Shown here one piece after another: positions 39,458-43,743 of a DNA stretch of 64,000 bases. How positions within the stretch are numbered: the first letter of the stretch is position 1; each line of letters opens with the position of its first letter. The notes under the pieces are model-generated. The model saw nothing but the letters and a program-made list of their open reading frames with translations. It made no database searches and was not told where the DNA came from. A program made the position numbers and the translations under genes. The DNA is from Opitutus terrae PB90-1 (GTDB lineage: Bacteria > Verrucomicrobiota > Verrucomicrobiia > Opitutales > Opitutaceae), in the NCBI RefSeq assembly GCF_000019965.1, contig NC_010571.1, positions 1 through 64,000 of the forward strand. Direction: 5' to 3'.

Positions 39458-41563
39458 ATGAATCGCACAACCCGCCAGCTCTGCTTCCCCGGCGTGGCGG
39501 TGGCCGTGCTTTTCGCTCTGCTCGCACTGCGCGCGCACGCCACCTTGGATGCGCCCGTCTCGCCCAATGCCCTGCCGGGCGTCGCCGCCGAGCTGCAGTT
39601 TTTTAAGAATATCCAGGGCCGCTACATCGTCGGTGGGCAGCAGGAGATCGCCTGGAGCGAACCGCGCGCAGAGGAGGATGTGAACTACATCGTCCAGCAC
39701 ACCGGCCGGACGCCCGGACTGCGGGGCTTCGATTTTCTCCAATACACCTACAGCTCCTCCGTGCGTGCGAACCAGCACTCCACCGAGCGCGCGATCGCGT
39801 GGGCCCGGGCCGGCGGGCTTGTGACCTACTGCTGCCACATGTTCATGGATATCGGCTCCACGAACGGCACGCCGCAGTTCTACACGCCCGGCTCGAACGG
39901 CAATCCCACCGGCACGAACTTCGACATCCGCCAAGCCGTCGTCGCCGGCACGCCAGAGAACACCGAATACCTCGCAAAGCTCGATCTCATCGCGGCGGAG
40001 TTGAGAAAGCTCCGTGACGCGGGCGTGGTCGTGATTTGGCGGCCGTTCCACGAGGCGGGCGGCACGTGGTTCTGGTGGAGCCGCTACGGCGCCGCGCCGT
40101 TCAAGGCCGCCTGGCAGATCATGTTCGAGCGCTTCACGCAGATCCACGGGCTCACGAATCTGATCTGGTGCTTCAATCCGACCGACGCCTCGACCGTCAT
40201 GGCCGGCTGGTATCCCGGCGATGCCATGGTCGACATGATCAGCCTCGACGTCTATCCGCCGCCGGGCACGCACCCGACTTACTCATCCGACTACAAGGCG
40301 ATGCGCGATTTCCGCGTGGGCCGAAAAGTCGTCGTGATGAGTGAAAACGGTTCGATCCCCGATATCGATGCGATGTTCGCGGAAGGTGGCAGTTGGGGTT
40401 ATTTCTGCACGTGGAACGGGTTTGAGAATGATCTCTCCCGGAACTCCCTCGCATTTCTCGATACCGTCTTCAACCACGCGCGCGTGCTCACGCGCGACGA
40501 GTTGCCGAGCCAGTATTGGTTCTACTCGCCGGACGTGGTGATCGACACGCCCAGCCAGTCCGTCACCGCCGGCGCGAACGCGACGTTCACCGCGACCGGA
40601 CCCGCAGGTGCGCCGCTCCGCTGGCAGTGCAACGGCGTAGAGGTGCCCGGCGCGGGCAGCGCAACACTCACGCTGACGAATATGCAGCCAGCGAACACCG
40701 GGCTCTATGTCGCGTTGAGCAGCAGCGGAGCTGGCGAGCGCCGGAGCGCCGCGGCGCTTGTGGGTCTCTCCACGACGGCCAAGGTAGTGGGCGGCGGTGT
40801 GGAGCGGTGGCCCAACATCATTCACCAAAACGGCAACGTCTTCGACCAGGTGCAACTGACCGGTGCGGCGGAGGCGATCACCGCGGATTCCGCGCTCGGC
40901 CAGATCACGCGCACGTCGTTCCTCGACGTTGATGGGGACATCGTGCAGGTGGAGTTCAGCGGACCAGGCACGCTCTCGCTGGTGCTTGATGAAGCCACGG
41001 CGCCCGCACCGGCGGCAAACTACAACCAGCCCGACATCCAGTATGTGCAGGGTCACGCTGGGATCGTCATCACCGGTGCCACGGCAGACACCAACGTGTC
41101 GGTATTCACCGTCGGGCGCGCGACAGCGGTGAATCAGACGCTGTTCAAGGACGAGGTGAACTATGATGGCGTGGCCGACGTCGCGTTCATCGCGATCGCC
41201 AGCAGCGACGGCCGGTTTGGGGACGTGCGGGCGGCGAACGCGACGTTTTTCACGTTGCGCGGCTACACCGGGCTGTATGCTCCGGGCGTGGTGTTTGGTG
41301 GGCCCGTTTATCTCGGCAACGTGAGCGCCTACGGCTCGGCGCAATCTGTGATCCTGCTCGGTGGCGTGCAGGGGGCAAGCCGGATCACCGGCGGCGACCT
41401 TTACCAGGAAAACGGCGCGGTCGTGCAGGTGAGCGGGCTGACGCAGTTGAAATTCACCGGCGGCAGTGATTCGCACGGCAATGCCATCTCCGCCAAGCCC
41501 AACGCCGCCGTGCTCAAGCAGAACGACCTCGACGTCACCGCGCAAATCGTGGTGAACCCGTAA
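39458..41563 (+). CDS. GH26 endo-beta-1,4-mannanase with Ig-like and C-terminal accessory module
   Basis: A 701-residue exported enzyme. The signal-like start is followed by a GH26 catalytic domain (about 40-365) with acid/base Glu199 in IWRPFHEAGGTWFWW and nucleophile Glu296 in VVVMSENGSIPD, the family signature. Residues of about 366-450 form an Ig-like domain (QSVTAGANATFTATGPAGAP, TNMQPANTGLYVA). The last 245 residues form an unknown module shared with the next gene. The enzyme would cleave mannan outside the cell. It is probably co-transcribed with the glycosidase upstream. Confidence 0.93.
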   Translation: MNRTTRQLCFPGVAVAVLFALLALRAHATLDAPVSPNALPGVAAELQFFKNIQGRYIVGGQQEIAWSEPRAEEDVNYIVQHTGRTPGLRGFDFLQYTYSSSVRANQHSTERAIAWARAGGLVTYCCHMFMDIGSTNGTPQFYTPGSNGNPTGTNFDIRQAVVAGTPENTEYLAKLDLIAAELRKLRDAGVVVIWRPFHEAGGTWFWWSRYGAAPFKAAWQIMFERFTQIHGLTNLIWCFNPTDASTVMAGWYPGDAMVDMISLDVYPPPGTHPTYSSDYKAMRDFRVGRKVVVMSENGSIPDIDAMFAEGGSWGYFCTWNGFENDLSRNSLAFLDTVFNHARVLTRDELPSQYWFYSPDVVIDTPSQSVTAGANATFTATGPAGAPLRWQCNGVEVPGAGSATLTLTNMQPANTGLYVALSSSGAGERRSAAALVGLSTTAKVVGGGVERWPNIIHQNGNVFDQVQLTGAAEAITADSALGQITRTSFLDVDGDIVQVEFSGPGTLSLVLDEATAPAPAANYNQPDIQYVQGHAGIVITGATADTNVSVFTVGRATAVNQTLFKDEVNYDGVADVAFIAIASSDGRFGDVRAANATFFTLRGYTGLYAPGVVFGGPVYLGNVSAYGSAQSVILLGGVQGASRITGGDLYQENGAVVQVSGLTQLKFTGGSDSHGNAISAKPNAAVLKQNDLDVTAQIVVNP

Positions 41564-41691
41564 GCAGGGTCATCACGGGCCTTTGGTGAAATACGCGCCA
41601 GCCCGCTCGTTGGAGTCAGTGACACGACTTTAACACGCATCTCACGAAATTCACCTTGTCGGGGTCGCTTCGACTCCGCGAAGGTGATGGG

Positions 41692-43743
41692 ATGTCACGG
41701 GCAAAGTTCTTCCTTTCTCTTTTTGCATTCATCACTGGAGCGGTGGCGATGCTCGCGCAGAGCACCGTGCCGGCGCTGAAATCGGGCGTCACCTTTTCCG
41801 CCCGCACGTTGGTCGCTGGCGAAGCGCCCATTTCCCTTCACCTTTCCGACTACTTCGAGGTACCGGGCGTCACCGGCACGGTCGTGCAGTTCGACACCAT
41901 TCGCGGCAAATTCAATGCCGAGTTGTTGTCAGCTGACGCCCCGAAAACCGTCACGAATTTCCTCAACTACACGCTGCGCGGCGCTTACACCAACAGTCTC
42001 GTGCACCGCTCGGTGCCGGGATTTGTGATCCAAGGAGGTGGCTATTGGCTGAACAGCTCCACCATCACGCCGATTACCACCGATCCGGCGGTTCAAAACG
42101 AGTTCAAGCTATCAAACGTTCGCGGAACACTCGCGATGGCGAAAACCGCGCAGGGCCCGGATACGGCCACCTCGCAATGGTTCATCAATCTCGCCGACAA
42201 CCACGCGGCGCTTGATTCCACCAACGGTGGCTACACGGTCTTCGGCCGCGTGCTGGGCACCGGCATGACGATCGCGGACTCGATTGCCGCCATTCCCGTT
42301 TACGATGCGAGCAGCCAACTCGGCAGCGCTTTCAAGGAGATGCCGCTCACCGGCTCGACCTTGGTGACAGCCAATCTCGTGATGGTCCACAGCGTACGGG
42401 CCGTGCCTGTCTATCCCAACCTGGCAGACGCAGGCGCCGTGCTCACGTTCTCCGCGCTCAGCGCCAATACCGGCGTCGTCACCGCGGAGGTGGTGGGGTC
42501 CACGCTCACCCTGCGGCCGGTGGCTGCGGGCAGCACGACCGTGACGGTGGCCGCCACGGATACCAACGGCAACCAAGCGCCGGGCCAAACCAGCTTTGCG
42601 GTGACCGTCACGACCACGCCCGTGTTCACCACGCAACCCGCCGCTCGTTCAATCGACGCGGGCGCTTCCGCGACCCTCACGGTCGCCGCCACGGCGGGCG
42701 CGACGCTGCAATGGTATCGCAACGGGCGCGCGCTTTCCGGTGCTACAACAGAAGGCGTTTCCATCACGTCCATGGAACCCCGATGGGCTGGGCTTTACAC
42801 GGTCGTCGCTCGGTCGGGCAATGCCGCGGCTCGCACGACTCCAGCGATTGTTGGACTCCTGCTCAACGAGGGTAAAGTTTTCGGCACCGCCGAGGAGGTG
42901 GGCTCCAACATTCCCCATCCGAACGGCAACATTTTCGATCAGGTGCTGCTGCAAAAGTCCGCGACGACAGGAGCTTCGGCCGCATCGATCCGAGCTGACT
43001 ACGCGCAGAACCAAATCACCCGGACTTCCTTCATCGGACTAAACGACGACATCGTGCAGGTCGAGTATAGCGGGCCTGGCACGCTCTCGATCCTGATGGA
43101 TTCAGTCTCTGGGCCTGCTACGCCGACCAAATACAATCAGCCGGACACACAATATGTTCGGGGCCACGCGAGTATCGTGATCACCGGAGCGAATGAAAAC
43201 TCACACGTCTCGGTCTTCACCGTCGGCAAGCTGACCGCTTATGACCCCACCGGAGCCTTCGACATTAGCAAACCGATCAGCTCGACCAACAATCCTGCCA
43301 ACAACGGTAACCCAATCTTTAAATCCGGTGAGAGCTACGATGGCATGGCGATCATCGCACGGATCTCGATCCGTAGTACGGATGGCAAATTCGGCAGCAT
43401 CCGGACGGCCGACACGCTGTTCTATGATGACGCAGGCTACGTCGGCATTTACGCACCAGGAGTCACGGTCGTTGATCGGGTTGTCATTGGCGACATCAAC
43501 GCAGACGGGGGAGCAACGCCCGCGATCATCCTGGGGGGCTCGCCTGCGGAGCTAACCTTGGTGACCGGCGGCGACCTTCACCAGAACAACGGTCAACCGA
43601 TCCAGATCAGTGGGATCACGAAATTGAAATTCCAAGCGGGCACGGACTCCCATGGCAATACCCTGCCTGCCCAGAAAAACCAGGGCATCCTCCACCAGAA
43701 CGGCGTGAACGTCACCGCGCAGATCGCGGTGAACCCACAGTAA
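41692..43743 (+). CDS. Exported cyclophilin-type peptidyl-prolyl isomerase with Ig-like and shared C-terminal module
   Basis: A 683-residue protein whose signal peptide (AKFFLSLFAFITGAVAMLAQ) starts at the ATG at 41692. Residues of about 65-240 form a cyclophilin domain with YTNSLVHRSVPGFVIQGGGY (catalytic Arg106) and SQWFINLADN. A cadherin/Ig-like region and an Ig-like domain (GASATLTVAATAGATLQWYR) follow, then a 270-residue module homologous to the mannanase C-terminus. It would isomerise prolyl bonds of exported proteins. The gene is 128 bases after the mannanase and ends before a strong hairpin terminator. A cyclophilin with this accessory array is unusual. Confidence 0.88.
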   Translation: MSRAKFFLSLFAFITGAVAMLAQSTVPALKSGVTFSARTLVAGEAPISLHLSDYFEVPGVTGTVVQFDTIRGKFNAELLSADAPKTVTNFLNYTLRGAYTNSLVHRSVPGFVIQGGGYWLNSSTITPITTDPAVQNEFKLSNVRGTLAMAKTAQGPDTATSQWFINLADNHAALDSTNGGYTVFGRVLGTGMTIADSIAAIPVYDASSQLGSAFKEMPLTGSTLVTANLVMVHSVRAVPVYPNLADAGAVLTFSALSANTGVVTAEVVGSTLTLRPVAAGSTTVTVAATDTNGNQAPGQTSFAVTVTTTPVFTTQPAARSIDAGASATLTVAATAGATLQWYRNGRALSGATTEGVSITSMEPRWAGLYTVVARSGNAAARTTPAIVGLLLNEGKVFGTAEEVGSNIPHPNGNIFDQVLLQKSATTGASAASIRADYAQNQITRTSFIGLNDDIVQVEYSGPGTLSILMDSVSGPATPTKYNQPDTQYVRGHASIVITGANENSHVSVFTVGKLTAYDPTGAFDISKPISSTNNPANNGNPIFKSGESYDGMAIIARISIRSTDGKFGSIRTADTLFYDDAGYVGIYAPGVTVVDRVVIGDINADGGATPAIILGGSPAELTLVTGGDLHQNNGQPIQISGITKLKFQAGTDSHGNTLPAQKNQGILHQNGVNVTAQIAVNPQ

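Follow-up and report, generated by a model that had tools for sequence, protein, structure and literature searches.

An undescribed domain shared by a GH26 protein and a cyclophilin of Opitutus terrae is a candidate surface anchor for exported proteins of the Opitutaceae

Why would a glycoside hydrolase of family 26 (GH26) and a cyclophilin, encoded side by side, end in the same domain? The two genes lie on the + strand of the first 64,000 nucleotides of the Opitutus terrae PB90-1 genome (NC_010571.1), the stretch that we call the window. A first-pass annotation of the window, made from the sequence alone, had claimed that the two C-termini are homologous. BLASTP bears this out (49% identity over 288 columns, covering roughly the last 260-290 residues of each protein; 252 bits, E = 2e-88), and every motif that the annotation had quoted is present. 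We propose that this module acts as a non-covalent anchor, keeping exported proteins attached to the outside of Opitutaceae cells. We consider this probable, and from sequence data we infer the surface location, the ligand, the tethering, and the surface-layer (S-layer) nature of the largest carrier protein.

The GH26 protein (701 residues; Pfam Glyco_hydro_26, E = 1.9e-54) spans 39458..41560 by our choice of reading frame and start, with its stop codon ending at 41563. It begins with a putative Sec-type signal peptide (MNRTTRQLCFPGVAVAVLFALLALRAHA; 39458..39541, by our own heuristic), which is followed by the catalytic domain (39560..40501, from Pfam), an Ig-like domain (40529..40708), and the module, which starts at about 40781 and continues to the last residue (40781..41560, delimited by BLASTP and the motifs). 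The cyclophilin-type protein (683 residues; 41692..43740, stop codon to 43743; Pro_isomerase, E = 1.6e-32) is built alike: a signal peptide by the same heuristic (41692..41775, cleavage point approximate), the peptidyl-prolyl isomerase domain (41884..42306, from Pfam), an Ig-like domain (42619..42813), and the second copy of the module, from about 42874 to the last residue (42874..43740), with an insertion of ~25 residues relative to the first copy. The Ig-like domain that had been reported ahead of both modules is seen in each protein as an Ig_3 match that misses the cut-off of Pfam (E = 2e-5 in the cyclophilin and, more weakly, 0.14 in the GH26 protein).

Does the module belong to a known family? 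The annotation recognized none, and this holds for Pfam-A, against which we scanned 38 members, and for NCBIfam, against which we scanned the two modules of the window. Weak Pfam matches to MmlI, CLP1_P, and GldM_2nd were inconsistent across members, and we rejected these families. A comparison of PDB sequences to a profile of the 38 members gave nothing below E = 0.5, and the best match (E = 0.51) is at the level of chance. A carbohydrate-binding or PPIase accessory family, which the annotation had set against its own guess, was not found for the module in Pfam-A, NCBIfam, or the sequences in PDB. The AlphaFold model of the GH26 protein's module (from 54 sequences) is almost entirely beta and is highly confident (pLDDT 96.5, pTM 0.92), so the module is predicted to be an autonomously folded, beta-rich domain. 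Foldseek found no match to it at E ≤ 0.001 in PDB or BFVD. The best rows from VIA had Z of 3-5 (best Z 5.0) and were mainly beta-helix proteins (pectate lyase, two-partner-secretion domains, and LpxD); these prove no kinship, but they suggest a beta-solenoid-like build. Our literature searches found no description of the module in the papers that we read. It appears to be an undescribed domain of ~260 residues that is in no family of Pfam-A or NCBIfam.

The module is attached far more broadly than to the two proteins of the first-pass annotation. In the complete O. terrae genome (one contig of 5,957,605 bases), we found 40 copies in 39 open reading frames. Most of these (36 of 40) stop 0-7 residues before the stop codon. 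The other four are two N-terminal copies in a 3575-residue DUF5122-propeller protein, an internal copy (with the layout GH62-Ig-module-529 residues), and a copy at residues 57-295 of a 1103-residue protein. According to Pfam, the partners in O. terrae include glycosidase domains (GH26, GH10, GH16, GH43, GH44, and GH62) and CBM4_9; peptidases and other hydrolases (S8, C10, M10, S41, beta-lactamase-like serine hydrolases, and a GDSL lipase); and RCC1, NHL, and DUF5122 propellers, Big/Ig arrays, and the cyclophilin. In most carriers, an Ig domain lies directly N-terminal of the module. With a strict heuristic, signal-peptide-like N-termini were present in 29 of the 39 open reading frames and in 13 of 222 internal control segments, so nearly all of the carriers are apparently exported; the 1103-residue protein has no such N-terminus. 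We also note a 295-residue protein (L034:3518-4402, - strand; G000:C1:415517-416401) that consists of a signal-like sequence and a single module and nothing else. It is possibly a free competitor, a cap, or an adaptor.

Across the Opitutaceae, the module is present in 23 of 252 genomes and in 9 of 49 genera, and in a sample of 388 genomes from the phylum, matches were confined to members of this family. A scan of GTDB contigs yielded 112 relatives; the 79 loci listed among them are titled Opitutaceae, Opitutus, Opitutae, or plain Verrucomicrobia/Verrucomicrobiia. The profile search that the annotation had suggested thus places the module at the C-termini of many apparently exported proteins of one lineage. 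Outside O. terrae the module is again mostly C-terminal, with internal cases of the forms Ig-module-CHRD-DUF1800 and module-DUF3500. (In the DUF1800 proteins with CHRD domains, at L112, L119, L127, and L134, the module lies between the Ig and CHRD domains.) Divergent modules occur on beta-lactamase-type serine hydrolases (L169:1-2496, - strand, in G332; L163 in G012; L165 in G056). In a tree of the modules, the GH26 protein's module is closest to the one on an RCC1-propeller protein (69% identity) and not to the one on the neighboring cyclophilin. This rules out a local tandem duplication between the two neighbors, and we conclude that the module has been shuffled among unrelated partners.

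What might such varied proteins share? The most informative carrier is a giant protein whose first domain is the module; we verified this layout in 11 genomes (G000, G007, G012, G023, G054, G056, G464, G597, G599, G600, and G602). Its N-terminus is of the form M(A/K)K...LExLEQRQLLA (or LETLESRQLLA). In O. terrae this is the 1103-residue protein, which is encoded outside the window (at about G000:C1:5141758-5145066, - strand) and whose likely start is MAKRIKKNSKSARSLLKLEALEQRQLLAG, with the module directly after. The giant proteins that we checked (6 of 11) have no cysteines, an isoelectric point of 4.05-4.33, and 55-69% T/A/G/S/V/N. The one from G464 (L215) has RTX repeats (HemolysinCabind, 26.2 bits versus a Pfam cut-off of 23); in the others these repeats are weak or absent. 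The O. terrae protein has a weak match, just under the cut-off, to the C-terminal 'bluetail' domain of surface proteins. These traits recall RTX-type S-layer proteins, which are acidic, cysteine-free, and repetitive, and the giant protein may form a lattice. A 99% branch of the module tree separates the N-terminal modules of these S-layer-like proteins from 51 modules of carriers, but their being a single clade is not established (57% only).

The neighborhood of the giant protein's gene points to export and to surface glycans. On one side in O. terrae are Wzt (the O-antigen ABC ATPase), a LuxR regulator, an M50 peptidase-HlyD hybrid, and a TolC-like OEP protein; on the other side are a glycosyltransferase and methyltransferases. 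Glycosyl- and methyltransferases adjoin the gene in both O. terrae (G000) and G023. In the other genomes with the module that we examined, the M50-HlyD hybrid, OEP, and LuxR are found again, together with a second HlyD, and Wzt is there in most: it is beside the giant-protein gene in G000, G007, G597, and G464 and near the exporter in G023, G012, G056, G601, and G484. The giant-protein gene is mostly adjacent to the TolC / M50-HlyD exporter. If an orthologue of the exporter is defined as an M50-HlyD match at E < 1e-100, then 18 of the 23 genomes with the module have one, as compared to 0 of the 229 genomes of the family without the module (Fisher p = 2e-23, ignoring relatedness). On an rpoB tree, the distribution of the module is patchy; the exporter changes along with the module in four of five independent contrasts and changes in the opposite direction in none. 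A congener of O. terrae (G003) has neither the module nor the exporter.

A related arrangement occurs in two Opitutaceae that lack the module, where a paralogous cluster (G042, L183:8777-18001; G049, L184:6098-12110) includes HlyD and M50-HlyD-type genes, along with OEP in G042 and SecA in G049. The cluster in G042 adjoins a giant protein that starts with MDPRPQNRFELENLEPRILLSGD. A second, smaller protein (434-504 residues) with an LExLExRTLLA start is encoded in the exporter locus of G039, G023, G012, and G056 (L177:9957-11294, L178:1993-3504, L179:14317-15618, and L180:15649-17043), and one of these four has a match to Planc_extracel just under the cut-off. Exporter systems of this kind may use the LEPR-XLL / Planc_extracel N-terminal motif as an export signal; LEPR-XLL is scarcely mentioned in the literature that we searched.

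We propose the following mechanism. The TolC / M50-HlyD system encoded next to it probably exports the giant S-layer-like protein, whose first domain, the module, would fix this coat to the cell. Copies of the same module, set behind an Ig spacer at the C-termini of dozens of proteins that leave by Sec (hydrolases, propellers, and a cyclophilin), would keep these carriers on the cell likewise. Because ~39 mostly exported-looking proteins carry the module and because it is also the first domain of the S-layer-like protein, it is probably a surface clip. The likeliest ligand of the module is a glycan of the cell surface, a product of the O-antigen-type genes that adjoin the S-layer-like gene; we favor a glycan because Wzt and other glycan genes are repeatedly nearby. 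Within the anchoring explanation, the chief alternative is that the module binds the coat protein. Of the roles that the first-pass annotation had guessed at, surface anchoring gains indirect support, from the module's place at the N-terminus of an S-layer-like protein in an exporter/O-antigen locus and from its co-occurrence with the exporter; secretion sorting loses ground, given the internal and N-terminal copies and the Sec-type signal peptides of the carriers.

Two known systems serve as functional models, and by sequence the module seems to be in neither family. S-layer homology (SLH) domains are shared by Gram-positive S-layer proteins and exoenzymes, and they consist of repeated helical units of ~55 residues. 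The module resembles them in that a single type of domain occurs, N-terminally or C-terminally, on an S-layer-like protein as well as on many exported enzymes, and in its proposed binding to a surface polymer. However, it is a single beta-rich domain of ~260 residues from Gram-negative hosts, and none of the 38 members matches SLH (PF00395) at E ≤ 1. The other model is the N-terminal domain of RsaA, the S-layer protein of Caulobacter, which to our knowledge is not common to dozens of enzymes. Like the module of the giant protein, it lies at the N-terminal end of an acidic protein, of S-layer or S-layer-like type, that lacks a Sec signal and whose locus is linked to O-antigen genes. It was not recovered by the search of PDB sequences (at E below 0.5) or among the Foldseek and VIA rows. 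In RsaA, residues 1-250 bind the O-antigen of lipopolysaccharide, the C-terminal domain forms the lattice, and export is of type I (PMC8828063), whereas O-antigen binding by the module is our prediction.

Several results weigh against surface anchoring. There are so few independent contrasts that they do not reach significance on their own (p = 0.125). Five genomes have the module and not the exporter; three of these are less than 90% complete, but G332 and G478 are 97% and 94% complete. Neither Foldseek nor VIA found similarity between the module's fold and a known glycan-binding domain or S-layer anchor. A polytopic membrane protein with no known Pfam family (L158:6770-9253, + strand, in G023) ends in a degenerate module, for which a surface role is less obvious. 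Finally, our literature searches turned up no documented S-layer for O. terrae in the papers that we read.

How do other explanations compare? The module might instead be a protein-protein docking domain, with the repetitive coat protein or other modules as its partners; an extracellular matrix or lattice would then be assembled with no recognition of a glycan. Having the module on both the coat protein and the carriers would permit module-module assembly, and the 295-residue protein with a lone module would suit this as well. But docking alone leaves the repeated proximity of Wzt and O-antigen genes unexplained, and we think that it is rather unlikely.

Less likely still, the module could be a C-terminal secretion or sorting domain that is recognized by an outer-membrane translocon, which exports the protein, and that is perhaps cleaved off or replaced by a lipid or sugar. 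The C-terminal domain of the type IX secretion system in Bacteroidota (Por_Secre_tail) is also shared by many Sec-exported proteins and often lies behind Ig-like domains. The strictly C-terminal position of most copies in Sec-exported proteins, the restriction to one lineage, and the co-occurrence with an exporter would all fit. However, that domain has ~80 residues rather than ~260, and the module, as modelled, is a complete folded domain that is also found internally (as in Ig-module-CHRD-DUF1800, module-DUF3500, and the GH62 protein) and N-terminally (in the S-layer-like proteins and the 3575-residue propeller protein). Also, the linked exporter adjoins the giant protein with the LExLEQRQLLA start, not the C-terminal carriers. 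We found no match to the type IX domain (PF18962/TIGR04183) with Pfam in the 38 members or with NCBIfam in the two modules of the window. A model of SprA matched in 0 of 8 genomes, but it was silent in control genomes too, so this is uninformative. A verrucomicrobial C-terminal sorting system, PEP-CTERM / exosortase, probably operates alongside the module, as the O. terrae genome has four matches to exosortases (G000:C1:319116, 3256472, 4283563, and 5043783); the module, as a folded domain, does not have the short C-terminal motif and transmembrane helix of that system.

That the module is a carbohydrate-binding module that directs enzymes to plant polysaccharides is improbable: many partners are hydrolases of such polysaccharides and the beta-helix pectate lyases are weakly similar in structure, but other partners are a cyclophilin, proteases, serine hydrolases, DUF1800, propellers, and a membrane protein, the module is the first domain of the S-layer-like proteins, and no carbohydrate-binding family in Pfam matched any of the 38 members. 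A retention module on the cell surface fits better than either of the last two explanations because internal and N-terminal copies are ill-suited to a terminal sorting signal, and because a cyclophilin, proteases, and a coat protein are ill-suited to a domain that binds the enzymes' substrate.

We more tentatively suggest that surface anchoring by the module is a Gram-negative equivalent of the SLH system that has so far gone undescribed. In it, a single new fold that binds glycans would serve both to anchor an S-layer, with a dedicated M50-HlyD/TolC exporter, and to display ~40 different enzymes, including a folding catalyst, on the cell surface. This stronger form is possible, but we would not yet count on it.

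The orphan LExLExRxLLA N-terminal motif is now tied to a concrete candidate export locus. If the anchoring proposal is correct, then dozens of unannotated C-termini would gain testable names and functions, and the module could serve as a tag for protein display in Gram-negative bacteria. Cell-bound degradation of polysaccharides in soil Opitutaceae would also be explained by one anchoring module that is reused widely and is linked with an S-layer-like protein and the exporter of that protein.

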